From NCBI GenBank assembly GCA_026169535.1, contig JAPFCU010000071.1:80782-144781 (forward strand): a DNA stretch of 64,000 nucleotides. Reading direction: 5' to 3'. The stretch's first letter is position 1. Each line of letters opens with the position of its first letter. Positions 25,983 through 49,205 of the stretch are shown piece by piece. Under the pieces are notes generated by a model. It saw nothing but the letters and a program-made list of their open reading frames with translations. It did no database searches and was not told where the DNA came from. Made by a program: the position numbers and the translations under genes. The stretch is from Blautia sp. Its GTDB lineage: Bacteria > Bacillota > Clostridia > Lachnospirales > Lachnospiraceae.

Positions 25983-27801
25983 AGCCAGAACATCTCTGAC
26001 GGCAGTTAGGCGTCACTGTTTCATTCTTCGCCTGATTCCATTCACGGATCAGGAATTCTTTTGTTACCCCCGCATCAATAAAATCCCATGGAAGGATTTC
26101 ATCTGTATTTCGCTCACGAAGGGTATAAAATTCTATATCCATACCTGTCTCGGCAAATGCTTCTTTCCAGATCTCATAATGGAAACTTTCTGACCATGCA
26201 TCATAAAGGGCACCTTTTTCGTAAGCCTTCAGGATAACATCCGCGCTTCTCCGGTCGCCTCTTGCAAGGAAACCTTCCAAAACAGTTACATCCGGCTCAT
26301 GCCAGTTATAACGGATACTCTTCTGGTTCAGCTGAGAACGGATCTCATTTTTTACGATCTTTGCTTTTTCAATAAATTCTTCTTCCCTGTACATAGGAGC
26401 CCACTGGAAAGGAGTAAATGGTTTTGGCACAAAAAAGGATGTACTCACATTGATCTGTACCTTTCCATTTCGTTTATCTTTTGGAATCTCATAATAGCGC
26501 TCTGCGATTTTCTCTGCAAGATGGGCAATCCCTTTCATATCTTCCTCAGTTTCTGTGGGGAGTCCAAGCATAAAATAAAGCTTTACGCGGTTCCATCCGC
26601 CTTCAAAAGCTTCTCCGGCTCCATGAAGAATATCTTCTTCCGTAAGCCCCTTGTTGATCACATCCCGAAGACGCTGAGAACCAGCCTCCGGTGCAAAAGT
26701 AAGACTGCTTTTTTTCACATCCTGCACTTTACTCATAACATCCAGTGCAAAGGCATCGATTCGAAGAGAAGGCAGGGAAATATTTACCGCTTTCTCGCGG
26801 AATTCATCAATCAGGAACGTAACCAGTTCCTTCAGCTGAGTGTAATCACTGGAACTTAAAGAACTTAAGGAAATCTCTTCATGCCCTGTATTTTTCAGCA
26901 TAGTACGCGCCGCTTTTTTTAAGGTCTCCACATCACGTTCTCTGGTAGGACGATAGATCATTCCCGCCTGGCAAAAACGACAGCCCCTGATACACCCTCT
27001 TTGGATTTCCAGAGTCACACGATCCTGAGTTGCTTTGATAAAAGGAACTACCGGGGCTTCCAGCATATTATAGTCGTTTTCCATATCCACGATCAGCTGC
27101 TTTTCTACTTTTTCAGGAGCTTCCGGTCTGTTTGGCATAAAAGAGGCAATCGTTCCGTCTTCTTTATAACTTACATCATAAAAAGAAGGAACATAAATAC
27201 CCGGGACCTGAGCCGCTTTTTTCAGGAAATCCACTTTGCTTCCGCCTGCTTTTTTATTTTCAATATAGGCATCAAACAAAGCGTTATAAGAAATTTCTCC
27301 CTCTCCAATATAAAAAAGATCAAAAAACGGTGCCAGAGGTTCTGGATTATATGAGCAGGCTCCTCCTCCGATCACAATAGGAAAATCCTCACCTCTTTCT
27401 TCTGCTTTCAGAGGAATACCTGAAAGATCCAGAAGCTGAAGTACATTTGTATAACACATCTCATAACCCAGAGTGATTCCAAGCATATCAAAATTTTTTA
27501 CCGGATCCTGGGACTCCAGGGCAAAAAGAGGGATATTCTGCTCTCTCATTAACTTGTCCAGATCTGTCCAGGGGGAAAACAGTCGTTCACACCATATGTC
27601 ATCTCTTTTATTAAAGCTGTCATAAAGGATCGCCATCCCCAAATTGGACATTCCAATTTCATACACGTCCGGAAATGCCATACAAAACCGAAGATCCACC
27701 TTATCTTTATCTTTCATGACAGAATTAACTTCCCCACCAATATACCGGGCAGCTTTATCAATCTTTAGTAATATTTCATCGTTTAATGCAAGTTTTCTCA
27801 T
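25933..27801 (-). CDS. TIGR03960-type B12-binding-domain radical SAM protein
   Basis: 622 aa; EIQRGCIRGCRFCQAGMIYRPTRER; C-terminal CRQRCSGCGA. Confidence 0.92.
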   Translation of the reverse strand: MRKLALNDEILLKIDKAARYIGGEVNSVMKDKDKVDLRFCMAFPDVYEIGMSNLGMAILYDSFNKRDDIWCERLFSPWTDLDKLMREQNIPLFALESQDPVKNFDMLGITLGYEMCYTNVLQLLDLSGIPLKAEERGEDFPIVIGGGACSYNPEPLAPFFDLFYIGEGEISYNALFDAYIENKKAGGSKVDFLKKAAQVPGIYVPSFYDVSYKEDGTIASFMPNRPEAPEKVEKQLIVDMENDYNMLEAPVVPFIKATQDRVTLEIQRGCIRGCRFCQAGMIYRPTRERDVETLKKAARTMLKNTGHEEISLSSLSSSDYTQLKELVTFLIDEFREKAVNISLPSLRIDAFALDVMSKVQDVKKSSLTFAPEAGSQRLRDVINKGLTEEDILHGAGEAFEGGWNRVKLYFMLGLPTETEEDMKGIAHLAEKIAERYYEIPKDKRNGKVQINVSTSFFVPKPFTPFQWAPMYREEEFIEKAKIVKNEIRSQLNQKSIRYNWHEPDVTVLEGFLARGDRRSADVILKAYEKGALYDAWSESFHYEIWKEAFAETGMDIEFYTLRERNTDEILPWDFIDAGVTKEFLIREWNQAKNETVTPNCRQRCSGCGARKYEGGVCVEGKN

Positions 27802-28072: not shown

Positions 28073-28615
28073 TTATTTTCTTCTGTCCCATTCCTTTTTT
28101 GTAAGACAGTTCACATGTCCTGTTCGCTTTTCCTGCAGTAGAGGTACATCCACATCCTGGGTTGTCCACTGGTACTGAAAACCGCATTTTTCCTGAACAC
28201 GCTTTGATTTTTCATTTCCATCGTAGTACGCACACCAAACCTTTTTCATTCCCAACTCTTCAAACGCATGACGCAGCAATTCTTCTGCTGCCTCCGGCAT
28301 GATGCCCATGCCCCAGTAAGGTACACCGAGCCAGTATCCAAGCTCACACTCATCCTCTTTTTCTGTCAAATCGGTATCTGTTCCCATTTTCAGGGCAATG
28401 TTTCCAATAGGAAGATTTGTTTCCTTCCATATGAGCGCATACGTTTCAGGAACAGAAAGCACATTTTTGATAATCCGTTTGCTTTCCGCTACATTTACGT
28501 GCGGTATCCATCCGCAAATTGGTCCCACCAGCGGATCTTTTGCATATTTATAACATTCCTCTGCATCTGATTCTTCCCATGGCCGAAGAATCAGTCTGTT
28601 AGTTTCCAAAATCAT
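28073..28615 (-). CDS. GNAT (RimJ/RimL-like) acetyltransferase
   Basis: 180 aa; ETNRLILRPWEESDAEECY, ELGYWLGVPYWGMGIMPEA. Confidence 0.9.
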   Translation of the reverse strand: MILETNRLILRPWEESDAEECYKYAKDPLVGPICGWIPHVNVAESKRIIKNVLSVPETYALIWKETNLPIGNIALKMGTDTDLTEKEDECELGYWLGVPYWGMGIMPEAAEELLRHAFEELGMKKVWCAYYDGNEKSKRVQEKCGFQYQWTTQDVDVPLLQEKRTGHVNCLTKKEWDRRK

Positions 28616-28683
28616 ATTTCTGCTCCTCTCTTAAAACCCGCGTTCTTTCTGCATTCGATACCATAGCCGTATTTTCCTTCCGA

Positions 28684-29235
28684 TTATTCGTTTTCATCCA
28701 TTCCCTTATACACCTGTTTTTTAAACCAATGCTGAAACTCCGACGCAAGGGAATCAGAAGAAAATTTCAATTTACGTATTTTTCCGTCCATATCCTCATA
28801 CATCACATAATAGACCTTTCCTCTGGCATGTTCTGCAATCTCCGTTTCTGTCTGGCGGCCAACAATGCGTTTAATATAATTTCTGTGACAAAGGATAAAT
28901 CCACCCCGGTCACAGGTCAGATACCAGTCTCTCTCCCACTCCGGACGGTCGTAATCTGTCCGGTCTTTCCAGTAGATACCGAGCCTGCGTTCCTGCCTCC
29001 ATGCCTTAAACAGACTGAACAGAGGAATCCCATAAGAACCTGGAATGACCAGCGCCAAACAAAAAAGTATAATTTTTATTCCTTCCGAATCGAAACGCCT
29101 GTAAAATAACACGGTAGCTCCTATGATGATACAGACGATCAGTAAGATTATAAACATGGTGAAACCCGACCATAAAAATATTCTGGTCAGAGAATCGTCA
29201 TAGATTGTCTTTTCTCTTTTTCCACTGCTTTGCAT
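28684..29235 (-). CDS. two-TM membrane protein with cytoplasmic PH-like (YcxB-like) C-terminal domain
   Basis: 183 aa; two hydrophobic helices then RDWYLTCDRGGFILCHRNYIKRI...LKFSSDSLASEFQHWFKK. Confidence 0.5.
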   Translation of the reverse strand: MQSSGKREKTIYDDSLTRIFLWSGFTMFIILLIVCIIIGATVLFYRRFDSEGIKIILFCLALVIPGSYGIPLFSLFKAWRQERRLGIYWKDRTDYDRPEWERDWYLTCDRGGFILCHRNYIKRIVGRQTETEIAEHARGKVYYVMYEDMDGKIRKLKFSSDSLASEFQHWFKKQVYKGMDENE

Positions 29236-29264
29236 TTTCTTTTCTCCTGCTCAATATATCGCTG

Positions 29265-29642
29265 TTATGCCAGCGCTTTTTTTGCAAGTCTTGTTTCTCC
29301 CCAGGGTGTCTTCAGCATGGTATCATTTCCTATAATTCCTGCCCGAACAACTTCGATAGGTTCTTCCAGTTCAGAAATCCGGATGCCATCAATACATGCT
29401 TTTGCCTGAAATTCATCAAACTCCTGGAAAACCTGTTCCTGAAACACAAAGGAAATATTTTCCTTCCGCTCTTGTGCATCTGGCGGAACTATACAGGAAC
29501 CCATAAGATATGCGCCACCTCGATAATGAAATTCAACCAGGGTAAATGCCATTCCTTCGTTATAATCCGACCGGATGATTTCCATTACATCTTTTCCCAT
29601 AATCCATAATGGTTTCTGCTCTTTCTTTTTAAATACAAACAT
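29265..29642 (-). CDS. hypothetical protein (125 aa, soluble)
   Basis: intact same-strand ORF in the gene run; no family recognised. Confidence 0.65.
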   Translation of the reverse strand: MFVFKKKEQKPLWIMGKDVMEIIRSDYNEGMAFTLVEFHYRGGAYLMGSCIVPPDAQERKENISFVFQEQVFQEFDEFQAKACIDGIRISELEEPIEVVRAGIIGNDTMLKTPWGETRLAKKALA

Positions 29643-29663
29643 AAAGCGTTTCCTCTCCTGTTC

Positions 29664-29984
29664 TTATTTTTTCTTTTTGGGTTTTGGAGCTGGCAGTTCC
29701 TCGTACATAACGTGAAACAAGCCTGTCAAAAATTCCTTACTGTCAACTTCATCGACCAGCAGCATTTCCTTTGCCCCCTCATAGGGCAATTCATACTGAG
29801 CTGTTTTCATATAACTGATTGCTGCTTTCACTGGCTTAACAAGCAATCTGTTATCATATATACCTCCTACAATCCTGCCACGATAATAAATAATAAATTC
29901 TCCCATCATAGACCGATAAGAAATTTCATCCAAAGCAGATAACTGCTCCAAAATATACTTTAAATATTCTTTACTTGATGCCAT
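29664..29984 (-). CDS. TfoX N-terminal domain protein
   Basis: 106 aa; YRSMMGEFIIYYRGRIVGGIYDNRLLVKP. Confidence 0.85.
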   Translation of the reverse strand: MASSKEYLKYILEQLSALDEISYRSMMGEFIIYYRGRIVGGIYDNRLLVKPVKAAISYMKTAQYELPYEGAKEMLLVDEVDSKEFLTGLFHVMYEELPAPKPKKKK

Positions 29985-30015
29985 AATTCCACCTCTGAGT
30001 TAAAATAGCTAATGA

Positions 30016-30354
30016 TTATCTTATTTCAATATTATTTATTTTCAATATCCCAATCCGGATCAAAATCCCCTCCACCTGACGGAAATAGATGATAAAAGCA
30101 ACCAGTATGATTGCATACAAAAGTATAGAATCTTGAAGAATTTTTCGAGCAAAAAATACGATGACAAACAGCGGAGACATTAAGAGTAATAAAGTAATTA
30201 TACACACTACTGTATTCTTAACTGTATCTTTATTCCATTCGCGAAATTCAGCCCCACAAGCGCAGCTGTTGGGAACCATTCCAAATTTTACATGAATCTC
30301 CAGCCCACACTTCATGCAGTACATTTTCTTCATTTTAGCACCTCTCTGCTCCAC
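30016..30354 (-). CDS. zinc-ribbon + two-TM hypothetical protein
   Basis: CMKCGLEIHVKFGMVPNSCACGAEF followed by two hydrophobic segments; start probably MKKMYC. Confidence 0.65.
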   Translation of the reverse strand: MEQRGAKMKKMYCMKCGLEIHVKFGMVPNSCACGAEFREWNKDTVKNTVVCIITLLLLMSPLFVIVFFARKILQDSILLYAIILVAFIIYFRQVEGILIRIGILKINNIEIR

Positions 30355-30412
30355 CTGTAAAAGATTTTATCCTCTTTATTACGTTACCTGTACTGTTTTT
30401 TATCAGGATCAT

Positions 30413-30550
30413 TTACATTTTTAAGTATAATACTGCCGTTCTTGCATAATTTATCTTTTCCCCTAAAATTCCGGATGCCAGGAAATATAATCCGATTCCG
30501 AAACATACAAATGAAAACCTCACTGAAAACAATCGAAAGGAAAGCGGCAT
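30413..30550 (-). CDS. possible 45-aa membrane peptide MPLSFRLFSVRFSFVCFGIGLYFLASGILGEKINYARTAVLYLKM, or the 3' continuation of 30602..30907 after an in-frame TAA
   Basis: in frame with 30602..30907 across one TAA; own SD-like GAGGGGG 8 nt before ATG; one hydrophobic segment. Confidence 0.45.
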   Translation of the reverse strand: MPLSFRLFSVRFSFVCFGIGLYFLASGILGEKINYARTAVLYLKM

Positions 30551-30601
30551 AACAAAATCCCCCTCAGGAATTTCTTCTTTTCTATTAATAATAGTACTAT
30601 C

Positions 30602-30907
30602 TTAGTCTCCTTTTTTCCATTTTTTATAATTATATACGGCCTGAATAAGCAGCATTATTGAAAATATCACTGCAATTAAGCATGTTCCAATATTTGACAG
30701 GAAAGAAATATGAAAGCCAATAATAGTTATTATCGACAGTGGAATCATCCATAATGTTCTGATAAATTTTCTTCTATAGCTTAGTTTCCAATAGCACAAT
30801 TCTATTCCTGTATCAATTTTTTCACATTGTTTCCATTTTGGGAACATCACTAAAGAAATGATTACAAGTGCAATTACAGGTAGAAACATAAATACCAATT
30901 CCATCAT
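30602..30907 (-). CDS. small membrane protein (101 aa)
   Basis: three hydrophobic segments; same-strand gene run. Confidence 0.6.
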   Translation of the reverse strand: MMELVFMFLPVIALVIISLVMFPKWKQCEKIDTGIELCYWKLSYRRKFIRTLWMIPLSIITIIGFHISFLSNIGTCLIAVIFSIMLLIQAVYNYKKWKKGD

Positions 30908-31064
30908 ATCCCTCCTTTTGTATATTTATGTCATTATATGATATCCCTGTAAGATTCAAGTATATTTCGATGTTAAATACTCGTAGAAATTCAGCTATTA
31001 ATATATGACATTTCTTTTATTGCCTTTATTAAGCTTCTTTTATTTTGTACTTCAGGAATCACAT

Positions 31065-33176
31065 TCACTGTGTCTTCGGCAGATGAATCTTCAGCATTTC
31101 CATTCCCAGAGGACTTTCACTATGACATACATCTAACGCCTCTCCCTTTATCGCCATTTCATAAATGCTATCTGATACATGGATTTTTTCCTCACTTCCG
31201 TCATCTAAAAGTACCGTCAATGTGTTGTCGTCGCCTTTGGTATTGGGATCTTCCTTATGACTGTCAACAATGACCGTTTTATAATGACGGGCCGGTCCGC
31301 ATAAAGCAGCATTTGCACAATAAGAAATACTCATGCCCAAGGACATACTCACAAGTATCACAAAAAAACCAGTTTCAAAACGTCTTCCCTTCGGTGTACG
31401 GTAAAGGCATAAAGAAATCACAGGGACAGCAATGAGCAGCCCCTGGATAATCCATATTTCACCGCTGCCTTTGGGCTGCATTGCACTTCGACTCCATATA
31501 TAATGAACCTGCCAGAGCATTGCAAGAGCCGGAAAAAGCATGACCGGCAAAGAAAGGCGGATATGCATGGAATTCCATTCTGCTGTGGCATTTTTCGGAC
31601 GATCTCCCAAAATAATTACCGGGGCAGATACAATACAAAAAATAAGAAACGGAATCGGTGATATGGCAGCAATCGCCATAGTTGTGCGAAACTTTACCCC
31701 TGCAAAGAGATATAACGGAATGGGTGAAATAACTCCAACAAGATACAAAATCATAACTACCCACAATCCCGTACTGATTGTTTTCAGATGGTCATGCCAG
31801 TGGGTACGATATTCCTCTCTCCACTGCAGTATGCTTTCCTCTTTTACCTGTTCTGCTGTCTGGCGTTCCATGGCAGGTGTCAGCAATGCTGCCAGATCCG
31901 TGCTTTCGATCCACTCTGCAAGCCGGGATGCCCCCTGCATATTTGTTTCTACGGAAACCAGCTTTTTTCTATTTGCATCTAATAACTGAATAGAACGGTT
32001 GACTGTAAGACGAACAGATGCCACCTGTTCCGCTTCCAGCTTCTTTTGTCTTCCCAGGCTGCTGATATACAAAACAGAATGATCCTGAAACACGAACATG
32101 GAGCGGTTTCGTCCTGCAAGGAGCATCCATACTCCAAAAAAAGTAACAAAAACGCCAATTGCTCCAAGAAAGATTGTACTGCCGTCAACAGGGACTGCTG
32201 ATGCAACTGCAACTGCCATAAAGAGAAAAACACTTCCCAGCAGCCACAGGAATATCCCAACTCCTGTGACTTTCTTCTGTTCCCGCAGCACAACAACGGG
32301 TTTATGTAACATGTCCTCAGGTTCTCTGTGACGATGCAGCAAAAGAATCAGCCCGGAACTAAACCATATCAGAAGCAGAATCAGTTCTATGGCTGTGTTT
32401 TGCGGAGCCAAAGGATCACCGGCAAAAAACAATATAACAAACAGAAACAGAGAGACAACCGCAGAAGTATATCCCGTCAGTGTGCAAGGCCACTTCTTTC
32501 CTGCCGCCGGAGGATTATTGTCTGGTTCCAGTTGTCTTTTAGGAGCATCTGGCTCCAATCGGACCGGCTCCATTTCCGGCACTTTTTCCAGCACCCTGCC
32601 GCAGTGTGGGCACTGAGACACATACTCCATCTGTGGAAAACGGCTTTTTTTATCAAGGGGCAGATTCTGACCGCATCCAGGGCATACCCAATACTGATAA
32701 AAAGCCTTCTGACGCATCAGGCGAAGATACAGATACCCTCCAGCCGGACATAGAAAAACCAGAATCAGATAAAGCAGATCCTTCGTTAATAGAAATATTA
32801 TAAAGCATCCCATGGACAAAACAGCCGAAGACAGCAATACCCGTGTTCCCATATGTACCGCCTGGCTATTTGCAGTGATATACGTCTCATTTCCACTGGT
32901 CATCCCTATATGTTGTATTTGTAGCAGAAACGCTTCTATCAATTCATAGAGGTCGTCGATATCATCTATTTCTTCACTTGACAGATGGTCGTACAGCTTT
33001 TCATTTACAAAGATCCTGCACCCTGTTCTGTTCACTTCTACCTTGGCATAAAGCAGCGTCAGTGTGAAATTTTCACCATAAAATTTCATCCGATACTTCG
33101 GGTATTGCGCTTTCAATCTGTCATAAAGTTTTTTTAGTTCATCCATATCATACATAAGCCTGCCCTCCCTGCTCAA
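31065..33176 (-). CDS. 703-aa multi-domain membrane protein with zinc ribbon, PH-like segment and DUF3592-like C-terminus
   Basis: CPGCGQNLPL...CPHCGRVL; FVFQDHSVLYISSLGRQKKLEAEQVASVRLTV; LTVLLDDGSEEKIHVSDSIYEMAIKGEALDV. Confidence 0.75.
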   Translation of the reverse strand: MSREGRLMYDMDELKKLYDRLKAQYPKYRMKFYGENFTLTLLYAKVEVNRTGCRIFVNEKLYDHLSSEEIDDIDDLYELIEAFLLQIQHIGMTSGNETYITANSQAVHMGTRVLLSSAVLSMGCFIIFLLTKDLLYLILVFLCPAGGYLYLRLMRQKAFYQYWVCPGCGQNLPLDKKSRFPQMEYVSQCPHCGRVLEKVPEMEPVRLEPDAPKRQLEPDNNPPAAGKKWPCTLTGYTSAVVSLFLFVILFFAGDPLAPQNTAIELILLLIWFSSGLILLLHRHREPEDMLHKPVVVLREQKKVTGVGIFLWLLGSVFLFMAVAVASAVPVDGSTIFLGAIGVFVTFFGVWMLLAGRNRSMFVFQDHSVLYISSLGRQKKLEAEQVASVRLTVNRSIQLLDANRKKLVSVETNMQGASRLAEWIESTDLAALLTPAMERQTAEQVKEESILQWREEYRTHWHDHLKTISTGLWVVMILYLVGVISPIPLYLFAGVKFRTTMAIAAISPIPFLIFCIVSAPVIILGDRPKNATAEWNSMHIRLSLPVMLFPALAMLWQVHYIWSRSAMQPKGSGEIWIIQGLLIAVPVISLCLYRTPKGRRFETGFFVILVSMSLGMSISYCANAALCGPARHYKTVIVDSHKEDPNTKGDDNTLTVLLDDGSEEKIHVSDSIYEMAIKGEALDVCHSESPLGMEMLKIHLPKTQ

Positions 33177-33617
33177 TTATTCCAAAGCAACATTATCATT
33201 ATTTATTGAAATCAGGATTCCATATTTCGAATGAGGTAAATATTTTACAGTCAGAACGTCTCCCTTGTCTATTCCTTTGGAATAAGAGAATTCTACGTAT
33301 TCGTCATGACCATCATCTATACTGATGATCACAACACTTCTGTCATTTCCTTTTCCATGAGCATTGTCCCTTGCATAACCGGTAATAGTTTCAAATTGAC
33401 TATTTCTGTAACAGGGAATATCCAGAATGATCGGCAGAAACATTTTATACAGGAAGATGCACACAAGAATTGCTGCCATTATCTTTAAGACGGTATCTTC
33501 TTTCTCTGTCATTTTATTGTGGAATTTTTTTCTCTTGATAAGAAAGAAAAACAGGGTGATCACCATTGCAAAAATGATTATGCTTCTGCTGAGCATTTTA
33601 AATAGTATCGCATCCAT
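33177..33617 (-). CDS. DUF3592-like membrane protein
   Basis: 146 aa; two TM segments then GNDRSVVIISIDDGHDEYVEFSYSKGIDKGDVLTVKYLP. Confidence 0.6.
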   Translation of the reverse strand: MDAILFKMLSRSIIIFAMVITLFFFLIKRKKFHNKMTEKEDTVLKIMAAILVCIFLYKMFLPIILDIPCYRNSQFETITGYARDNAHGKGNDRSVVIISIDDGHDEYVEFSYSKGIDKGDVLTVKYLPHSKYGILISINNDNVALE

Positions 33618-33657
33618 TCACATTCCTCATTTCTTATTTTTCATTGCTCTGAAATTC

Positions 33658-33800
33658 TTATCTCTTATCAAATTTTTCAACTTCCAATTTTTTGACAGCA
33701 AAATATTTCACCAAAAGAAACACTCCCAAAATACAAACCAAGCAGAGCAAAACTGGTTATGCACCATCCTGCTGCCACTTTCTTTGCTGACTTTTTTCAT
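33658..33800 (-). pseudogene. frame-disrupted small membrane protein, reconstructed MKKVSKESGSRMVHNQF[+1 nt]LLCLVCILGVFLLVKYFAVKKLEVEKFDKR
   Basis: ATG with AAGGTGG 8 nt upstream; frame broken at a 4-T run (plus-strand A's at 33749-33752); adding one T restores a one-TM micro-protein. Confidence 0.5.
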
Positions 33801-33887
33801 TAAATATACCACCTTCACAATTCTTCTTCGGATACTTTTATCTTTGCATGGAACATATTTTCCAAAGACTCTTTCCATTTGTCCTTT

Positions 33888-34391
33888 TCACAGTCTGTCA
33901 AAGAACAAATATAGTGCCAGCATAACGATGACACAGCCGCAGAATACGCCCATAGCCTTCCTCAATTCGTTATCACGAAATTCTTCCCTTGGTAAAATTC
34001 CGTCTTTTTCGTAATCATAGTAAACGTGATCTGTGGTATAAGCCGGAATATGGTCTCCCACTTCATACTCATTATATATTTTCCCTGAGACCTGCATTCT
34101 CTTATCTGTATCATAGTAGAAGAAATAATTTGTAGATACACCATGTCTTCCACTGGGAGAGCTATAGGTGTCTTTTTTCCTGATTACAACATTCTCTATA
34201 AAATAATCTTTTCCAAGAACCATTTGCTCCATCTGTTTTTTAAATTTCACAGAGGTGATTGCCACCCTTGTCCAAAGGAACACAAACAGGATACTAAGTA
34301 TCACCAGCAAAACTGCTAAAAGTTTCTTTATTCTTTTTCTTCTTATTATTTTCGCTTCCAGATCTTTCGTCTTAATCAGTTTGTTGCTCAA
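33888..34391 (-). CDS. two-TM membrane protein, DUF3592-like topology
   Basis: 167 aa; TM, extracytoplasmic YFFYYDTDKRMQVSGKIYNEYEVGDHIPAYTTDHVYYDY, second TM. Confidence 0.55.
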   Translation of the reverse strand: MSNKLIKTKDLEAKIIRRKRIKKLLAVLLVILSILFVFLWTRVAITSVKFKKQMEQMVLGKDYFIENVVIRKKDTYSSPSGRHGVSTNYFFYYDTDKRMQVSGKIYNEYEVGDHIPAYTTDHVYYDYEKDGILPREEFRDNELRKAMGVFCGCVIVMLALYLFFDRL

Positions 34392-34494
34392 TTTTAATTC
34401 CCGCGCCTCTCCTAAAACTCAAATTGTATTAGCCCTTAAAATATTTGGGGACTATTTATATTTTTTTCTCCTGCAAGCTTTAACACTTAATTGT

Positions 34495-35184
34495 CTAATT
34501 GAACTCCACAAGATCCAGCCCGGTTTCCACCTGGAATCCATCTGCCCACTTTTTATCACGATAAAAAACAATCCCCTCCTGATATCCGTCACTGGTAAAA
34601 AACAACTGTTTTTCATCTCCATATTCTTTAATAATCTTGTTCAGTTCGTTTGCAACACTTACATCAAACCAGTCGTCGTACACTTCTGCCTCAAAAGTAA
34701 ACTGCCTGTTTTTCCATTCAAAAGTAACTGTTCGTTTTCCTGTTCCTTTTTCCCAGTTCACCTGACTGGTATCTTCCTGTATATTCTTAAAATCAAGTTC
34801 TTCTTTATCCAAAGACGAAACACCTGTCAGAAAATCCGTATACATCTTTTCTGCATTAAAGAATTCCACGTCAAAAGTATATACACCGTTTGCATAAGGA
34901 GTCCATGTCATATTGTCATAATCAAAATCTCCCTGTCCCAGTACAGTCAGCAGCATCGCAGCCTTATTTAATTCCACTTCCGGCGGCATCGCTTTATAAT
35001 CCTGTTCCAGATCATCTATCATTTGATCGGTCGTTCCCTGTATCTCATATTTTCCAAAAATTTCAGCAAGTTCTTTATATGTTTTTTGCATAGTTTCTCC
35101 CCCTGGTAAATTATTTTTAAGTCCACATCCACTTAATAACAGCGACCCGGATAAAATAAATATTAAAAGTTTTTTCATGATCAC
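34495..35184 (-). CDS. lipoprotein, unknown function
   Basis: 229 aa; signal peptide and lipobox LLLSGCGLKNN. Confidence 0.75.
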   Translation of the reverse strand: MIMKKLLIFILSGSLLLSGCGLKNNLPGGETMQKTYKELAEIFGKYEIQGTTDQMIDDLEQDYKAMPPEVELNKAAMLLTVLGQGDFDYDNMTWTPYANGVYTFDVEFFNAEKMYTDFLTGVSSLDKEELDFKNIQEDTSQVNWEKGTGKRTVTFEWKNRQFTFEAEVYDDWFDVSVANELNKIIKEYGDEKQLFFTSDGYQEGIVFYRDKKWADGFQVETGLDLVEFN

Positions 35185-35198
35185 AGTTACCTTCCTTT

Positions 35199-35726
35199 TT
35201 AGAATATGTCAGCAATTTCCTCTGATTTTAAGTTATCCAGCCAGCTTTCCATATTTTCAAAATTATCAAACTGTCGGGTAAGAGTGAAAATTTTTTTATT
35301 CTTATAATACAGTTTTATTTTACAGCTGTTTATTTTTTTATATGTAATTTTATTTCCTGAAAAAATGCAGCTTTTTCTTCCTTTCATTACTTTTATTTTT
35401 TTATCATCCAGAACAACAATTTTATTATTTTGATAATATTTCCACATAAAAAAGTCTGCAATACTTACCAAAATTACTACCGCTGTATAGCACATATTTT
35501 CCCAGTCTCCGGATAGAAAATACGAGATAAAAGCGATTGCCGCCATAATCCCTAATGGAATACAGATAATGGTCATAACTTTCAATACTTTCATCATATT
35601 GCTGCGCATTTTCACTGTATAAACAGCGGTATCATCTTCCTTGCTTTTTTCTGTAAGGTATTTAAAAATAACTGGAACAAGAAAAATAGCCCCTAAAATA
35701 TATGCACTACTGTAAATTAATTTCAT
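35199..35726 (-). CDS. membrane protein with PH-like C-terminal domain
   Basis: 175 aa; hydrophobic helices then KIVVLDDKKIKVMKGRKSCIFSGNKITYKKINSCKIKLYYKNKKIFTL. Confidence 0.55.
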   Translation of the reverse strand: MKLIYSSAYILGAIFLVPVIFKYLTEKSKEDDTAVYTVKMRSNMMKVLKVMTIICIPLGIMAAIAFISYFLSGDWENMCYTAVVILVSIADFFMWKYYQNNKIVVLDDKKIKVMKGRKSCIFSGNKITYKKINSCKIKLYYKNKKIFTLTRQFDNFENMESWLDNLKSEEIADIF

Positions 35727-35765
35727 CAGTTCCTCCCCTAAACCATACAGTACAATTGGAACTTA

Positions 35766-36113
35766 TCATAAAAAAAATTCAAACCATATTCCAACTGTGA
35801 TAAGTGACAAACCAGAAATTCTCCCTGCAATTTTCGATTTTTGATATCCTAAAATTTCAATAGTTTCAGGGGTTGTAAATGGGAATACAGTAATATCTAT
35901 ACCCATTAGCATAATTCCAGCCCCGATAATAGAACTGGTATTCAATAAAATGCCATAAAACATCACCAAAAATCCAGCGATGATACCCATAATAAAATAT
36001 TTTAGTTTATGGTTGTCTTTCTTAGTGCTTGTCCTATAATTATTTTCACATTCACTGCTACAAAATTCATAGCTGCTGTTTGAATTTTTACCACAGTATC
36101 GGCATTTCTTCAT
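35766..36113 (-). CDS. zinc-ribbon + TM hypothetical protein
   Basis: CRYCGKNSNSSYEFCSSEC followed by hydrophobic segments. Confidence 0.65.
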   Translation of the reverse strand: MKKCRYCGKNSNSSYEFCSSECENNYRTSTKKDNHKLKYFIMGIIAGFLVMFYGILLNTSSIIGAGIMLMGIDITVFPFTTPETIEILGYQKSKIAGRISGLSLITVGIWFEFFL

Positions 36114-36135
36114 TTTAAGTCACCTCAGTAATTGT

Positions 36136-37344
36136 TTATCCATTAAAGCAATCCTGTCTGCTTCGTTTTTTCTTTCTTGCATCCAGCGGAGAAAAGGTCT
36201 GGATATAATCCCTTCGGATCTCTGTAACATCCTGAGTAAGAAATGCGGCAATACGCTCCTGATCGGAAATCAGCTCCGGAAAGCAGGATGCAAATTTCTC
36301 TGCCAGCTGTTTCTCTTTTCCATACAGGTTAAGAGATCTCTCGTATCCAATCAGTTCTCTCAGGACAGAAGTAAACTCTTCATACCTGTTTTCTCTGATC
36401 TCCAGATCAACGCTGGCTTTTGCAGTTGTTCCATTTAGATAAAGAACCTTCAATAAAGTATCGTTTCTGGAACGATCCATGGTTACCCACAAAGCCAGCT
36501 TTTTTGAAATCAGCTTTCCGCCCATCAGCATCCAGTTCTGGCTTCGATAAATTTCAAGATACTGTTTCATGGCGGGATCTTCAAATGGTATTCGTTCAAA
36601 GTGCTCTCCCTCCAGAAGCAGCTCCAGCTGATTTTTGCTGAGGCTCTGATTCAGCACCGGTATACTGTGGCATGGCGTGCAAATATAGCGTTTCATTTTC
36701 TGAAATAGTGTAGCAACTAAAACTGCTATACAAAATAAACACAGAAAAAACTGTCTGTCCATTTCTACTTTACCGGTTGCTGCTTCCCAGATACCACACA
36801 GAACGATCACAACACCAAATCCCCATAACCCGAAAATCAGAAGTTTTTTCAACGGATAAAAATGAATCCATTCGATGATCTGCACCTGCTGTTTGCCGCT
36901 CATAGTTTTCTCGCGTAAGAGCAGACGGGCAATCCATTGATTCAGAATCTGAGGAATCCATGCAATTCCAAACAGTAACGCCATAATACCCGCATAAAAA
37001 GCAATTCCGATCCATCCGATATCAAGATAAGATTCCAGAAGCAGAGGGAAGCTTATCAGCAGTAACATAATAAAAAAAGATGGCGACGACGTCTTTTTTC
37101 GCCCCTTTTGGACATTCACATCATTTATCGCGGAATTGACACACAAGACAGAAATTATAACCGCTGACATCCCTCCTGACACCCAGTTTTTAAGATCTCC
37201 AAAACGCATGACATGTTCCTTCTGGTGCATGCCGGGAAAGTTCCCGGTAATGCCCGCATAAAGGCAAAAACCTAAATAAGCCAGCGCAAGCAGCGCTCCT
37301 GCCAGCTTCAAAATTGTTTTTCCAGAAAATTTTCGTTTCTCCAT
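36136..37344 (-). CDS. multi-TM hypothetical protein (402 aa)
   Basis: intact ORF, six or so hydrophobic segments then a soluble C-terminal half. Confidence 0.65.
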   Translation of the reverse strand: MEKRKFSGKTILKLAGALLALAYLGFCLYAGITGNFPGMHQKEHVMRFGDLKNWVSGGMSAVIISVLCVNSAINDVNVQKGRKKTSSPSFFIMLLLISFPLLLESYLDIGWIGIAFYAGIMALLFGIAWIPQILNQWIARLLLREKTMSGKQQVQIIEWIHFYPLKKLLIFGLWGFGVVIVLCGIWEAATGKVEMDRQFFLCLFCIAVLVATLFQKMKRYICTPCHSIPVLNQSLSKNQLELLLEGEHFERIPFEDPAMKQYLEIYRSQNWMLMGGKLISKKLALWVTMDRSRNDTLLKVLYLNGTTAKASVDLEIRENRYEEFTSVLRELIGYERSLNLYGKEKQLAEKFASCFPELISDQERIAAFLTQDVTEIRRDYIQTFSPLDARKKKRSRQDCFNG

Positions 37345-37390
37345 GATGTTTGTTTCTCCTGTAAAATGGTATATAGAAAAGTAAGCTTGT

Positions 37391-38218
37391 TTATTCTCCT
37401 CTGCGCTGACGGATTATAAAATAAAGCAGCAGACAAAAGGTTGCCACAGAAGCTCCCATACAGGGAAAATAAATATCTCCGGACATTTGGTTCACAGCCG
37501 GATGACTCAAAACGCACATGGTAACACAAGCCGCAAAGGCCAGTCCGCTTAGCAGAATACACAGTGGATTTCTGTTTTCAGTCAGCTCCAGGGTGTTCTC
37601 CCAGGTTTTCCTTCTCTCGAATTCCTGCAGCAGCATTTCTTCATCCTGGATTCCCTTAACCAGAAAATATGTATGTCGGATCATACGCTTACCGGGATGG
37701 CGTAACTGGCATCGAACAGCGTAATGGCTGCTGTTTTCTTTGATGTTCAATACTCTCAGGATTTCCTCTGCGCCATTTGGAAGAAAGGGCTGCCGACCCT
37801 GAGTGCGTAAAAATGTCTGGGTTTCCATTGCGCCAAGGGCAAATCCCCAGAATCCGCGTCCATGATAAGACAGACCGCGTGCATCCATGACCCATAAACG
37901 GTCGTTTTCTGTAAGGAAAAAGATCATGGCGTCCTGCATCCCGCGCCGTCCCAGCCTTGTAGCCAGTACAATCCCAAATGCAGTGGCAAGAAGAACTAAA
38001 ATCATAGAAAAGCTTTGCTGGGGCAGCCCCAGAGAAAGGGACAAAAAGCTCCCTGCAAAAAGCAAAGCTGTCATCAGAAATACAATTCCCAATATTCCTC
38101 CCACCGTCCGATAGCCATAGTGGCTTTTTTTCTCTGTCTCAGGGGACATCCACACTTTTTTCAGCTCCATTTTTATCGCCTCCTGTACCATCTTTATATC
38201 AGTTTTTATCTCGTTCAT
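37391..38218 (-). CDS. multi-TM hypothetical protein (275 aa)
   Basis: hydrophobic segments flanking a FLTENDRLWVMDARGLSYHGRGF...-type cytoplasmic domain. Confidence 0.65.
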   Translation of the reverse strand: MNEIKTDIKMVQEAIKMELKKVWMSPETEKKSHYGYRTVGGILGIVFLMTALLFAGSFLSLSLGLPQQSFSMILVLLATAFGIVLATRLGRRGMQDAMIFFLTENDRLWVMDARGLSYHGRGFWGFALGAMETQTFLRTQGRQPFLPNGAEEILRVLNIKENSSHYAVRCQLRHPGKRMIRHTYFLVKGIQDEEMLLQEFERRKTWENTLELTENRNPLCILLSGLAFAACVTMCVLSHPAVNQMSGDIYFPCMGASVATFCLLLYFIIRQRRGE

Positions 38219-38585
38219 TCAAAAATGACTTTACTCTTTCAACTGGAAATTTGTCCTCTATATCAACCACTTCAAACAAATTCAAAGGCAATTCCTTTTC
38301 TCCAATCAAGGTAAGATACTCACTCACAGCTCTGCGGTCGATCATTATTTTGCCATGTCCGGCCCAGTGACGGTTACTCTCTTTCTTTTTTAAACCAGAA
38401 ATCCAGTATTCATCTCCATTTTCGATATCAATATAGTTTGAATAGCTTCCATTACTCTTCTGAAAAGCATGGTCATTAAAGTAAATGGTTTTCTTGGTTT
38501 TTGAGGTTTTTACATATCCGACCCATGCCGGACCATCATCGGAATATCCTGTTTTTAATTCAATATACATTAGATTATTAATCAT
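38199..38585 (-). CDS. hypothetical soluble protein MINNLMYIELKTGYSDDGPAWVGYVK...
   Basis: intact ORF; internal Met start fits better than the 38609 start; tail overlaps 37391..38218. Confidence 0.7.
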   Translation of the reverse strand: MINNLMYIELKTGYSDDGPAWVGYVKTSKTKKTIYFNDHAFQKSNGSYSNYIDIENGDEYWISGLKKKESNRHWAGHGKIMIDRRAVSEYLTLIGEKELPLNLFEVVDIEDKFPVERVKSFLNERDKN

Positions 38586-39009
38586 TTTTTTCCTCCGGCT
38601 TTCTTTCAAATGACAGGTATCTTGTTCCCTGGAATGTCAGTCTGCCTGTCATAATAAAATCCATAAGCTTTTCTATATCATCAAATTCATCATAGTCTCC
38701 ATGGATGCCCTCTCGATGATATACAATTCCATTTTTCTCGTTTCTCTCCAGACAGTCCAGCAGTTTTTCCTCTCCATATTTTTTCGCAAATAAAGTAAAT
38801 ACATATGGTTTTATTTTACTCAGTACCCCCTTTTGACAATTTTCTTCACATTTATAACAATGTGTCAATTCTTTCTCTATTGAGCATTTTCTGTTTTCAC
38901 AAAAATCATGATCCGGACATTCCTTTGAGCCACACCCATTACATGTAACATTTTCTGAACATAAACAGCATGCAAGACCACATCTGGCAATTCCTAATTC
39001 ACGTTTCAT
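38578..39009 (-). CDS. DUF3795 Cys-rich protein
   Basis: 143 aa; RCGLACCLCSENVTCNGCGSKECPDHDFCENRKCSIEK. Confidence 0.85.
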   Translation of the reverse strand: MKRELGIARCGLACCLCSENVTCNGCGSKECPDHDFCENRKCSIEKELTHCYKCEENCQKGVLSKIKPYVFTLFAKKYGEEKLLDCLERNEKNGIVYHREGIHGDYDEFDDIEKLMDFIMTGRLTFQGTRYLSFERKPEEKND

Positions 39010-39181
39010 ATAGTACCTCCGGTAAATTTCTGTTTTTTAAGGATTTTTTATTTGTAAATAATTCATAGCAGTATTATATATTATGAGATGTTTTTTGTAT
39101 ATATTTTTCTGTATAAAATGATATATCTTGTCGCTGCTCACTACTTTCACAGTATAGTTACTAACATTCTTAAATTTTATA

Positions 39182-39251
39182 ATACCAAACGAATGTATCT
39201 TGACAGAAAGAATGCATTTAGATATAATCAATACATACCAAGAGAATGTTA
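39182..39251 (+). promoter_or_regulatory. tetR promoter (TTGACA-17-TATAAT, 39200-39228) flanked by two ATACC-N7-TGTwx operator-like copies
   Basis: ATACCAAACGAATGTAT (39182-39198) and ATACCAAGAGAATGTTA (39235-39251). Confidence 0.65.
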
Positions 39252-39268
39252 TGAAAAGAGGAAGTCCT

Positions 39269-39916
39269 ATGGCAAGAAACAAATATCCGGAAATGACTGT
39301 AGAAAAAATTCTGGATGTGGCACAGCATCTGTTTTTGGAAAAGGGTTATGATAATACCACAATCCAGGATATTGTAGACCATTTAGATGGTCTCTCCAAG
39401 GGAGCGGTCTACCATCATTTTAAATCAAAAGAGGAAATTATGGACGCAGTAAGTGATCGTATGTTTTCCTCAAATAATCCTTTTAAAAAAGTCCGAAATC
39501 GTACAGATCTTAACGGTCTTCAAAAACTTCGTGAGGCAATCCGGCTGAATCAGTCTGATGAGGATCAGACCAGCATGACAATACAGTCTATTCCTCTTAA
39601 AAGAAATCCAAGACTTCTGGTTGAGATGATTGAATCCAACCGGCGTATTTTAACTCCGTATTATCAGGAACTTCTGGAAGAAGGAAATAAAGACGGTTCG
39701 ATCCATACAGAATATGCAAAAGAAATCGCTGAACTCATACCCCTGCTCACCAGTCTATGGCTTCTTCCTTCAGTATTTCCCTCTGATAAAGAAGGTATGA
39801 AAAATAAGTTTCGATTTCTGGGAGATATGTTGGAAAAGATGGGGGTATCTCTTATGGATGCTTCGATTTGTGCACTGATAGATGAATTCTTTGAAAAAAT
39901 TCCAGAAGAAAAATAA
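39269..39916 (+). CDS. TetR-family transcriptional regulator
   Basis: MARNKYPEMTVEKILDVAQHLFLEKGYDNTTIQDIVDHLDGLSKGAVYHHFKSKEEI; AGAGGAAG SD; ORF track starts at 39200. Confidence 0.93.
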   Translation: MARNKYPEMTVEKILDVAQHLFLEKGYDNTTIQDIVDHLDGLSKGAVYHHFKSKEEIMDAVSDRMFSSNNPFKKVRNRTDLNGLQKLREAIRLNQSDEDQTSMTIQSIPLKRNPRLLVEMIESNRRILTPYYQELLEEGNKDGSIHTEYAKEIAELIPLLTSLWLLPSVFPSDKEGMKNKFRFLGDMLEKMGVSLMDASICALIDEFFEKIPEEK

Positions 39917-39940
39917 AGTTGCCATAAGGCAATTTTATTT
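39917..39940 (+). terminator. intrinsic terminator after tetR
   Basis: AAGTTGCC-ATAA-GGCAATTT followed by T-rich tract. Confidence 0.6.
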
Positions 39941-39951
39941 TTAAGATATAC

Positions 39952-39974
39952 ATACCATCGTCCGGTATTATAAT
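39952..39974 (+). promoter_or_regulatory. MFS promoter -10 (TATAAT 39969-39974) with ATACC-ATCGTCC-GGTAT palindrome in the spacer
   Basis: 5-7-5 inverted repeat immediately upstream of TATAAT. Confidence 0.6.
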
Positions 39975-40005
39975 TAAAAACAATAGAAATATGGAGGTAT
40001 CAATC

Positions 40006-41238
40006 ATGACAGAAAAAAAGAATCCGAAACTTTTTACCCGCAATTTTACATTTTTGATCTTGGGGCAGATCAGCTCTCTGATTGGAAATTTCTCTCTGAA
40101 ATTTGCTCTTTCCATGTATATCCTGGAACAGACAGGCTCCGCTTCTGTTTTTGCAGGGCTGTTAGCTGTGGCTATGCTCCCTACTATTTTACTGTCCCCC
40201 TTTGGAGGAATTCTGGCAGATCGGGCAAACCGCCGTAATATTATGGCAGCACTGGACTTTCTTTCCGGGCTTTCCGTACTCATTGCCAGTTTTGCGGTAC
40301 CTTCAGAGCATGATATTTTTGCTATCGGCGCACTTCTTCTTATTCTGTCAGTCCTGGGGGCTTTTGAATCTCCTACTGTACAGGCGTGTATTCCGCAAAT
40401 GCTGTCAGGCGACAATATAATAAAAGGAAATGCCATTGTTAGTCAGGTGGCTTCCATTGCTTCTCTGCTCACTCCATTTTTGGGAAGCATTTTCTATACT
40501 GTACTGGGAATTCGGTCAGTATTCTATACTACGTCTATCTGCTTCTTTGTAACTGCCTTCCTGGAATGTTTTATTTTTCTCGATCATAAAAAATCACAGT
40601 CAAAAACAAAGCTTTCTTCTGTCATCAAAGAAGACTTTTCTGACAGTATGCGCTTTCTATGCCGCCAACAGCCTGGTATATTAAAACTTCTTCTGCTTGC
40701 TGCCTTCGTGAGTCTGTTTGTAACCGGTACTGCTGTAATAGGCTTTCCGTACCTGGTTCGAACAGTATTGGGGCTTTCCTCCAATCATTACGGCATTGCA
40801 GAAAGCGCTATGGGAATTGCTTCTGTCTCAGGAAGTCTTCTGGTAGTTCTGCTTGCAAAAAAAATATATAGCCGTCATCTTTGTATGGTTCTGGTGTCCT
40901 TCGGAATTTGCCTTATTCCATGCGGAATTGCATTTATTCTGCCATTGAAAACGCTTCCCCGTTATCTTATCTTACTGATTATGTTTTGTGCCTGCCAGCT
41001 TGGATGCAGTCTGTTTTCCACTTACGCTGTTTCTCTCATACAGTCAAAAACGCCAGAACATCTGATGGGCAAAGTGATGTCATATGTGTTTACTCTTTCT
41101 ATGTGTGCACAGCCGGCAGGACAGATCATTTACGGAGCATTATTTGATCACTTCTCAGATAACGTTTATTTTGTTCTGATTCCAAGCGGTCTGCTCATAT
41201 GTCTCATTGGATTATTGTCCCGGCACTTTTTGGATTAG
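40006..41238 (+). CDS. MFS transporter (enterobactin-exporter/MefA-like fold)
   Basis: 12-TM pattern; SPFGGILADRANRRNIM motif; GGAGG SD before ATG 40006. Confidence 0.9.
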   Translation: MTEKKNPKLFTRNFTFLILGQISSLIGNFSLKFALSMYILEQTGSASVFAGLLAVAMLPTILLSPFGGILADRANRRNIMAALDFLSGLSVLIASFAVPSEHDIFAIGALLLILSVLGAFESPTVQACIPQMLSGDNIIKGNAIVSQVASIASLLTPFLGSIFYTVLGIRSVFYTTSICFFVTAFLECFIFLDHKKSQSKTKLSSVIKEDFSDSMRFLCRQQPGILKLLLLAAFVSLFVTGTAVIGFPYLVRTVLGLSSNHYGIAESAMGIASVSGSLLVVLLAKKIYSRHLCMVLVSFGICLIPCGIAFILPLKTLPRYLILLIMFCACQLGCSLFSTYAVSLIQSKTPEHLMGKVMSYVFTLSMCAQPAGQIIYGALFDHFSDNVYFVLIPSGLLICLIGLLSRHFLD

Positions 41239-41269
41239 CAGATTTCAGTACACCTATGTCTTCCCGTCA

Positions 41270-43506
41270 CTATAATCGATTGGAACTGCCGCGGATCGAA
41301 CGTTGGAACAACAGCCATGTACTGAGAAAATAACAGCCCAGCAGCAAAGCAAAAATTCCCACAGTTATGCCTGTTTGCCGCATTAAGGCTCTGCAGCCAA
41401 TATAAGCTGAGATTTCTGCAGAAACACTTTGAAGAAAATAACTGATCACAACAATTGCCACAGCAATTGCCGTTGCAATTGGCAGGCCAAACCAGACACC
41501 AAGCTGTTTTAGAACCAAAATATTCAGTTCCTTCTCTTCTACTCCCATTTTTCGCAGAACTGAAAATCGGTAATGATATTTTTCTGCATCTAAGAGCTGT
41601 TGGAGAGCCAGCACGGTAAGACACATAACCATCAGCACAACTGCACTGTAGATCAGGGACGCTTTTAGGATAAAATTAAGGGCAATTGTACGGTTCACTT
41701 CAGTGGTATGAATAGTTGTACTGTAGCCTGGCAGATTGTCTTTGCCAGGATCCTCTGGATAAGTACTTGCCAGAAGCTGTTCCAGCGCTTCTGCGGTTTT
41801 GAAGGATAATGGACGTTTGGTCATCACAAACCGGTTTCTCTGAACCGGCAGCAAAGCCTGTGCTGCTTTGTCAGGTATAATATACACCACATCCGTATAA
41901 AGATTATAGATGGATTCCCCTACAGGCTCCTGAAACACTGGGTTTTCACTGAGTTTCAGTGTGCCTGTGTCAGTTTCCAGTAAGCTGTGGACAGCGATGT
42001 AATCCTCAATATCTTTAACATCCGCTGCACGATGCCAGTGTGTGGCAAATTCATCTGACTTCAGGATGACTGGCTCATATCCCAACATTTCCCGAACAGC
42101 ATTATAATCCTTCAGTGCAATCGCTAACGGAGGAAAATCGTACTTTACCCGCTGGTGAAAAGAGTCTCGTTTTGGAAGATACTCTGAAAAAATCAGATCA
42201 TCCTCTATCGCAATTTGATTTTTTTCTATAAAATCAGTAATTTCGTCATAGTCTGTATCCGGAAGATTTTCCACTTCATAAACATTATTGTAGCGGCTTG
42301 AAATTTGAATATCATAGACAGCCCGACTGTCCAGATAACCCAGGCTCCATCCTGTCAGAACCGGCGCAATGACAAACAAGCAGATAGAAAAGGTCAATGT
42401 AACGCAAATTATAGTCATCGTTTTCGTATTGGTAACAAGCTTAGACGAAAGCTGTCCAAACAGAAATAAATTTGTATTGTGATATTTGCGGGACACTTTA
42501 GATTCTTTCCAGTACAGGAGCGCTTCATTAGATAAATAAATGATCGTGGAAATGATAAACAAAATATCTGCAATCCCAAACATTAAATATTGATTCAGGG
42601 TTGGAGCATCATATCCAAGAAAATAGGTGTTTTCCAATTTTGCAATGGAAAAAGTCGGTATGGCAGTCATGACTGCGCCAGCCAGAAGTCCACAGAGATA
42701 CCTGGAAAATCCTGTTTTTCTGCGTAAAAAAGCACCTGTTATTCCCCAAAGCAGAGTCAGCGAAGGAAAAACGATATTCCCCCAATACATGAGCTTAACA
42801 GGAAGCGGATGTCTGGAATCGAAATAGAAATAATATTTTACAGCCCCCACTTCCAGCATCCATAACAGCAGGATGCCATAGAAAATACAGATCATCGGCA
42901 TCCATCTGCTTTTATGAAGAGGTTTTTCATTCTGCCGGTTTGCCGTCATAAGCTCAATAATCCTGCTTTTATTGAGAATTCTGACATTCCCTATTCCAAC
43001 CAGAATCTGGCAAACAACAAAGAAGCCCACAGTCATCAGCACGGTATCTGGAAAAAAAGCCCAGGAAAAAGCGTATGGTTTCCCAAAAGATGCAAGCAGC
43101 ATGGCAGTAATAAACTGAGAGACAATCATCCCCAGAAGGATTCCCACCGACACAGAGAGTATGAGCAGAAAAAAAGTCTCGCTAAAAAAGAGCAGCCCTA
43201 TGGTTTTTTGTTCCATTCCCAAAGTTGCTTCAACGGCAAACTCCTTTTGTTTTTTCTCAGCATGAAACGATTGACATAGTGAATCAAAAACAACAAAAGC
43301 AGACTGACTCCGCAAATTGCCAGTTTCATGCCTCCGGCCAGCAGGGAAATGTTATATTCCGCACCAATGGTCGGATGATAGTACCTGCTGCTGACAGACA
43401 GAAACGCATAGAACAAGGTAACACAGACTGTCATGGTCACAATATAGATTGAATAGTCCTTCACAGACCGCTTTGCATTTTTGAAAACAAGCTTAGCGTA
43501 CATCAC
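41270..43506 (-). pseudogene. BceB/FtsX-like ABC permease split into two overlapping frames (43198..43506 and 41270..43315); about 745 aa if rejoined
   Basis: ...LIHYVNRFMLRKN | QKEFAVEATLGMEQKTIGLLFFSETF...: homologous continuity across frames at minus-strand A_AAA_AAC (43255-43249). Confidence 0.85.
43249..43255 (-). other. slippery heptamer A_AAA_AAC in register with the upstream permease frame
   Basis: 0-frame AGA AAA AAC AAA AGG; -1 frame continues CAA AAG GAG TTT. Confidence 0.8.
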
Positions 43507-44269: not shown

Positions 44270-44316
44270 CTCTGATCTCTATTGTAGAATAAAAACGTCT
44301 TTGTTTGTATCAGGTT

Positions 44317-44347
44317 TTCTTACAGAGTTCTAACAAAAATGTAAGAA
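44317..44347 (-). promoter_or_regulatory. candidate BceR-type operator upstream of the ABC genes
   Basis: TTCTTACA-N15-TGTAAGAA, containing TAACA-AAAA-TGTAA (44331-44344). Confidence 0.65.
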
Positions 44348-44376
44348 GTGCAGAACAATTTTCAGTTCTGCACTTC
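44345..44376 (-). terminator. terminator hairpin overlapping the sensor-kinase stop codon
   Basis: GAAGTGCAGAAC-N8-GTTCTGCACTTC perfect 12-bp stem, then TTACATTTTTG on the minus strand. Confidence 0.75.
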
Positions 44377-46040: not shown

Positions 46041-46126
46041 ATCAGCCTCCGTAATAATATAAAACAGCTGTTCTTGCTTCCACTGACATTCCTATCAGGC
46101 AATTATAAAAGCACCGCTTTCTCTAA

Positions 46127-49137: not shown

Positions 49138-49205
49138 AGTGCTGCACCTCTTTCTTAATTACTTTTTCATACAGACAGATTTATCTGTCTTTGTCTGCAA
49201 TTGAA

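Follow-up and report, generated by a model that had tools for sequence, protein, structure and literature searches.

A mobile, toxin-free array of membrane-protein genes in Blautia, probably an orphan polyimmunity locus

Introduction

What use to a gut bacterium are small membrane proteins and lipoproteins whose genes stand in a closely packed row? The question is raised by a 64,000-nucleotide stretch of Blautia sp. (contig JAPFCU010000071.1 of assembly GCA_026169535.1, positions 80,782 to 144,781; hereafter the window), in which about 11 kb, positions 28073-39009, hold 16 open reading frames (ORFs), all on the minus strand. They are named i1 (upstream, at 39009) to i16 (downstream, at 28073). 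A preliminary description of the sequence had reported this one-orientation run, free of toxin, integrase, and transposase genes, and had read it as an orphan immunity or envelope-stress array. The run is confirmed ORF by ORF, and the 16 ORFs include no toxin ORF, toxin-family match, integrase, transposase, or other recombinase. Comparative data favor the immunity part of that reading: the locus is probably an orphan, heterogeneous polyimmunity-type array, likely directed against membrane-acting toxins. The argument first offered for it, folds shared among the proteins, fails for most of them at the sequence level.

Conserved order, exchange, and decay

Eleven of the 15 junctions between i1 and i16 are overlaps or gaps of at most 68 bp. 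A Shine-Dalgarno (SD) sequence precedes most starts; SD positions and homologues place the true starts of i2, i3, i10, and i12 later than listed. Transmembrane (TM) prediction finds two to several helices in i3, i4, i6, i8-i12, and i15, and one stretch in i5.

Related rows occur elsewhere. Relative to the window genome (G000), G011 is the closest genome examined (radical SAM protein 96% identical). G061 carries, on another contig, i2, i3, i4, and i6-i15 in the same order, with i5 missing and extra genes interspersed. In Parablautia sp. Marseille-Q6255 (core radical SAM protein 71% identical to that of the window), array genes 70-88% identical stand in the row i4, i6, i7, DUF6560, i8, DUF5104, a polytopic protein, DUF6560, i9, i10, i14, i15. 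The core order i4-i6-i7-i8-i9-i10...i14-i15 recurs in a second species of the genus as well as in Parablautia, with single-gene insertions and deletions.

Between G000 and G061, 11 array genes show a synonymous divergence (dS) of 0.19-1.08, and three core genes one of 1.5-2.3. Array dS lies so far below core-gene dS that the array must have been exchanged horizontally after the species split. The ratio of nonsynonymous to synonymous divergence (dN/dS) is 0.08-0.34 for array genes, so the survivors are under purifying selection. On these comparisons the array is a mobile block that has moved between genera, gaining and losing single genes.

It has also decayed. At 33620-33869, three collinear blocks, with deletions between them, are 93-94% identical to a polytopic membrane gene that is intact in G061 (L064:11204-11854) and in Parablautia. 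At 30359-30563, two blocks 84-87% identical to G061 mark what is left of a GHKL-type histidine kinase and the genes around it (intact at L064:15858-18792). The gap at 34392-34494 is a deletion junction, aligning solely to the end of a DUF6560 gene that stands there in G061 and Parablautia; the G061 gene (L064:10080-10553) matches DUF6560 at E 3.1e-59. These scars imply that the array lost genes and is partly decayed, not intact.

Tight spacing and conserved order might instead denote a single multi-subunit membrane machine, for envelope stress or secretion, built from all the core proteins. This is highly improbable, and already largely contradicted by the variable subunits: at the very site that the window insert occupies, G057 has i3, i4, a different GNAT gene, and i15; G121 carries i4 with no other array gene; and other genera carry i3 alone. 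Such an obligate complex would not tolerate this gain and loss. Gene content differs among G000, G061, G057, G011, and Parablautia, as it does between strains in published heterogeneous polyimmunity loci. Family-wide conserved synteny with housekeeping expression was not seen: homologues of i3 occur in 5, and of i4 in 6, of 239 other family genomes sampled.

A segment of promoter-like character (39029-39111, minus strand) precedes the array. Its counterparts ahead of i3 in G057 (L066:13853-13940) and of i6 in G061 (L064:8680-8740) are 83% and 79% identical to it, so the segment is conserved before arrays that differ in composition and first gene.

Immunity and toxin genes beside relatives of i4 and DUF6560

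The central gene is i4 (36136-37344), predicted to encode six TM helices and a C-terminal domain resembling the pleckstrin-homology (PH) fold, a likeness that the preliminary description did not list. Its AlphaFold2 model has a mean pLDDT of 64, with about 60-83 in the C-terminal domain of six strands followed by a helix. The top Foldseek matches of that domain are mostly PH domains, individually non-significant (best E 0.019); solved structures include no useful relative of i4 or of DUF6560. A collection-wide scan found 29 i4 loci, in three kinds of setting, and none in plasmid and phage collections.

Type 1 arrays occur in Hungatella, Eubacterium callanderi, Clostridiales CCNA10, an Oscillospiraceae metagenome-assembled genome (MAG), Parablautia, and Blautia caecimuris. 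They combine an i4 orthologue (about 75% amino acid identity) with lipoproteins, a bPH_3-like protein, and, at variable position, Imm70 (E 1.5e-44), Imm33 (E 8e-20), or DUF6572 (E 8e-36). Leaving i4 aside, the genes that they share are for the most part 92-100% identical across families, in hosts with core radical SAM proteins from 88 down to 50% identical to that of the window. Several adjoin a serine-recombinase-like ORF.

Type 2 cassettes, in Sellimonas, Gemmiger, Pseudoflavonifractor, Mediterraneibacter, and others, combine a distant i4 relative (23-27% identical) with DUF5104 and ankyrin repeats; some also carry a DUF443-like gene. Several copies are 99-100% identical, and some lie beside relaxase- and recombinase-like ORFs. 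Type 3 is represented by G188, where the i4 relative is in a row with EssC (E 2.8e-64) and starts 12 bp after a 178-residue LXG-like ORF with a glycine-rich hydrophobic stretch. From this company, i4 is the key immunity candidate of the array. (A YezG-like identity suggested by eye for L109:10732-11163 found no Pfam match and was dropped.)

A second thread runs through DUF6560, a family of membrane proteins with two TM helices and a PH-like domain, found in 29 of 299 family genomes. DUF6560 genes are present in the G061 and Parablautia sister arrays. Four near-identical loci resembling integrative and conjugative elements (ICEs) also carry DUF6560, accompanied by DUF5104, an i9 relative, or both wherever sequence covered the neighborhood; i9 relatives on ICEs adjoin DUF6560 and DUF5104. 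In G364, a complete Lachnospiraceae genome, DUF6560-type genes lie among SUKH immunity, PT-HINT-WHH, PT-HINT-GH-E, LHH, and Ntox15/Tdi1 genes, and one of them stands 18 bp after a toxin-like ORF. The polymorphic toxin locus there (L210, L212) is beside conjugation-type genes; PT-HINT is fused to WHH, GH-E, and Ntox15 tips, and the locus also carries Tdi1, SUKH, and several DUF6560 genes.

Co-occurrence, proposed earlier as a check, thus links i4 relatives with the curated immunity families Imm70 and Imm33 and a type VII secretion system (T7SS) locus, and DUF6560 with SUKH, PT-HINT, and Ntox15, whereas i3 relatives outside the genus are solitary. Another proposed check, comparison with close relatives, found variable presence, with no insert in G011, but no toxin system in the window genome.

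Do the array proteins share a fold?

The preliminary description had seen recurrent pieces: a TM pair with a PH-like domain in i15, i10, i6, and perhaps i3, and DUF3592-like ectodomains in i10, i9, and i8. Only part of this is borne out. No array protein matches DUF3592 or a bPH family above the Pfam cut-off. The PH-like assignment has a sub-threshold DUF6560 match behind it for i6, lacks profile kinship for i15 and i3, and meets a low-confidence model for i10 (pLDDT 55). Profile comparison of i3, i15, and i4 with DUF6560 gave nothing significant. Nor do profiles show kinship among the C-terminal domains of i8, i9, and i10, the proteins labeled DUF3592-like: i9 compared with i8 and with i10 gave nothing significant. 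A PH or DUF3592 fold common to all array proteins is accordingly rejected at the sequence level. Glycine zippers are not evidence alone, because 159 of the 1,491 ORFs examined contain GxxxGxxxG.

An orphan immunity array: mechanism and objections

Immunity function and the nature of the toxins are read from the context of i4 and of the sister-array DUF6560 genes. The same-strand membrane proteins and lipoproteins would each neutralize a different toxin delivered by neighboring Gram-positive bacteria. Most of their targets would probably be toxins acting on or within the membrane. There, anchored PH-like and polytopic proteins and lipoproteins could bind incoming toxin domains and stop insertion or depolarization, by analogy with the reported protection by TsaI and ExiC/ExiD against TspA and EsxX. 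The array would then be a preventive set, its host strain not producing the toxins itself.

Several observations weigh against this. No window array protein matches a curated or named immunity family above the Pfam cut-off. Neither LXG nor PT-HINT was found in the window genome, although that genome is 89.75% complete and absence is not proven. (For EssC, the same genome at the same completeness yields a match to the FtsK region alone.) Outside the genus, i3 is solitary in five other genera, in one case beside two-component and ABC genes. The DUF443-like (TsaI family) match in type 2 cassettes falls below cut-off (E 1.4e-4, 22.2 of 26.2 bits). The T7SS link of i4 is one 6.7-kb MAG contig (G188), whose LXG match is also below cut-off (E 0.0024). 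The i6 match to DUF6560 spans the full length but likewise stays below cut-off (E 0.0012), with an hhalign probability of 6%. Mobile islands collect many unrelated genes, and four or five of the sixteen array genes look like unrelated passengers.

A broader proposal is more tentative, and somewhat less apt to hold than not: that TM-pair and PH-like proteins of the i4 and DUF6560 types form an undescribed immunity class against membrane-acting polymorphic or T7SS toxins, and that the arrays are acquired interbacterial defence, spread by mobile elements through toxin-less gut Firmicutes. What is new is a polyimmunity-type array whose products are PH-like or polytopic membrane proteins or lipoproteins, and which moves between families of gut Firmicutes. 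If the immunity reading is true, i4-type proteins, DUF6560, and DUF5104 become candidate immunity families for membrane-acting toxins. Two candidate toxin-immunity pairs would also follow: the G188 LXG-like ORF (L107:5559-6095) with its i4-like protein, and the G364 toxin-like ORF (L210:6882-7832) with its DUF6560 protein (L210:7851-8288).

Other members of the array

The remaining core genes are varied. Next to i4 in G061 and G057 is i3 (37391-38170), predicted as a TM pair, a cytoplasmic domain, and a second TM pair. The DUF6560-like i6 (35199-35726; two TM helices and a PH-like domain) keeps its position in G061 and Parablautia. It is followed by i7 (34495-35184), whose lipoprotein label is upheld by a signal sequence and Cys20, and which is 87% identical in G061 and Parablautia. 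An extracytoplasmic domain between two TM helices characterizes i8 (33888-34391; 89% identical in G061, 79% in Parablautia), and a small extracytoplasmic beta domain with two TM helices characterizes i9 (33177-33617; 96% identical in G061). The longest ORF, i10 (31065-33155), appears to join an N-terminal domain, a zinc ribbon, and a polytopic membrane protein; its C-terminal 400 or so residues align to a shorter stand-alone family. Small proteins follow: i11 (30602-30907; two or three TM helices, 96% identical in G061, dN/dS 0.08) and i12 (30016-30333, corrected start; a zinc ribbon and two TM helices, present in G061). Downstream, i14 (29265-29642) is soluble and belongs to no family; it is an array member in Parablautia and is 77% identical in L131 and 92% in G061. 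Finally, i15 (28684-29235; two TM helices and a cytoplasmic domain) is present in G061, G057, and Parablautia.

Some members are less at home. The only Pfam matches above cut-off in the array, TfoX_N in i13 (29664-29984; E 7.3e-8, relatives scattered) and GNAT in i16 (28073-28615; Acetyltransf_3, E 1.1e-28), agree with the names first given to them, while the DUF3795 label of the cysteine-rich i1 (38578-39009) is weak (E 0.65), with relatives scattered in unrelated contexts. The soluble i2 (38199-38585, SD-corrected start) has no family; it occurs in the G061 array and, as solitary relatives, in many species. These four, i1, i2, i13, and i16, are probable passengers. A treble-clef zinc ribbon with one TM stretch is predicted for i5 (35766-36113; DUF2116, E 5.9e-6, 0.2 bits below cut-off). 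Relatives of i1, i2, i5, i13, and i16 have mainly GNAT and helix-turn-helix (HTH) genes as neighbors in a 63-protein control neighborhood.

Other observations concern array components elsewhere. A GHKL-type kinase and LytTR-like regulator module, of which 30359-30563 is the window remnant, is 81-93% identical in three unrelated contexts (L064:15858-18456, L114:14294-16436, and L162:13531-16047). Inside the G061 array, a trio of small genes (L064:18856-19893) resembles, by eye, DUF3990/DUF3791 toxin-antitoxin systems. Two equal-score matches to window 29275-29645, about 1.2 kb apart at G045:C2:740048-741598, suggest a tandem duplicate of the i14 region. A shorter array (L064_13-like, DUF6560, a 400-residue i10 relative, and others) is about 95-100% identical between G045 and G307, of another genus (L120, L202), and adjoins transposase- and relaxase-like ORFs. 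No recombinase adjoins the window island; recombinase-like ORFs, named by eye, stand beside sister arrays L134, L139, L146, and L196-L198.

The insert and its site

In G011 (locus L068) the PQQ-like and radical SAM genes that flank the window insert are separated by 42 bp, with clean junctions in the alignment. Because G011 joins these genes directly, the whole of 27.8-51.05 kb (27802-51057) is accessory. The array had been placed between core genes and a TetR/MFS pair; that pair lies inside the accessory block, not at its edge. TetR and MFS genes (39200-41238) and two two-component systems with MacB/FtsX-type ABC transporters (41270-50988) complete the insert (39200-50988 in all) and have no counterpart in G011. 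They are separate cargo within the same insert: in Parablautia and G057 they do not adjoin the array.

Their presence raises the main rival explanation, a resistance island against antimicrobial peptides or bacteriocins (lantibiotics, leaderless bacteriocins) working with the two-component and MacB-type modules. Two such modules and an MFS pump share the insert, similar modules interrupt and flank the array in G061, genes of the SdpI family lie close to relatives of i1, i2, i5, i13, and i16, and DdE/DdF, membrane proteins with PH domains, take part in the export of leaderless bacteriocins (PMC8657885). Yet the modules are absent from beside the array in Parablautia and G057, no bacteriocin precursor was found in the array gaps (SD-bearing small ORFs there are confined to the kinase remnant), and the contexts of i4 and DUF6560 are immunity and toxin arrays, not bacteriocin clusters. 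Peptide resistance is an unlikely account. (A known anti-phage defence system was also considered and set aside, PADLOC models giving no match for the 10 island proteins scanned.)

The insertion site bears on a further rival. In many examined species of the genus, gene content varies immediately upstream of the radical SAM gene. Five other genomes contain the first 46-49 codons of that gene (window 27663-27801) as detached 5' fragments (L074:15727, L160:9148, L161:9610, L162:8656-8799, L163:9174, L164:8577), all ending at a core TTYCCGGAYGT (codons 44-47); some adjoin a tyrosine-integrase-like gene or genes of ICE type. Mobile elements thus appear to use the 5' end of the radical SAM gene as an attachment site. 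Entry of the array by ICE integration there is not claimed; the window carries a single copy of that end.

Such a hotspot might simply have gathered miscellaneous accessory genes with no common function. The attachment site at the left edge, the scattered GNAT/HTH contexts of i1, i2, i13, and i16 relatives, and the partial decay of the array all fit that view. It is nonetheless improbable: gene order in the i4-i15 core is maintained from genus to genus, with its genes under purifying selection, and the core is found again beside immunity families, not random cargo, while Imm, SUKH, and PT-HINT are missing from the 25 commonest families of the control neighborhood (46 others being rarer). An orphan immunity array remains the preferred reading, and the one compared below with published systems.

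Comparison with known systems

Zhang et al. (2012) define heterogeneous polyimmunity loci as immunity genes that lie close together on one strand, include no toxin gene, and differ from strain to strain (PMC3482391). The window array has these structural features: it is same-strand, closely spaced, toxin-free, and variable in content. Adjacent recombinases, found in several of the published loci, have recombinase-like ORFs beside sister arrays as their counterpart. The identity of its members as immunity genes is deduced from context. The superfamilies described in the available part of that paper are mostly soluble, whereas the window core consists of membrane proteins and lipoproteins with no named immunity family.

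Closer in protein type are TsaI and ExiC/ExiD, staphylococcal membrane proteins that protect against membrane-depolarizing T7SS toxins; orphan copies of exiC and exiD are found in antitoxin islands (PMC9484751, PMC12744356). Clusters of tsaI (DUF443) and orphan exiC/exiD share with the window array polytopic membrane proteins of known or candidate immunity function, orphan island copies in Firmicutes, and glycine-zipper or depolarizing toxins as presumed targets. However, no DUF443 (TsaI) or DUF5079/DUF5080 (ExiC/ExiD) Pfam match was found in the window, so its array is not classed with them, nor was a T7SS or LXG protein found in G000. DdE and DdF of leaderless bacteriocin clusters (PMC8657885) are likewise bacterial PH-domain proteins tied to the handling of membrane-active toxins, but their role is export within a bacteriocin cluster, and the window array holds no such cluster.

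In ecology, the nearest likeness is to the acquired interbacterial defence islands of Bacteroidales, which, in the available text of PMC10470768 and PMC12247911, are mobile orphan immunity genes in gut bacteria. Those islands target effectors of Gram-negative type VI secretion systems; the window host is Gram-positive and uses other protein families. If its immunity role is true, the array described here would be the Gram-positive gut counterpart of the Bacteroidales orphan-immunity islands.

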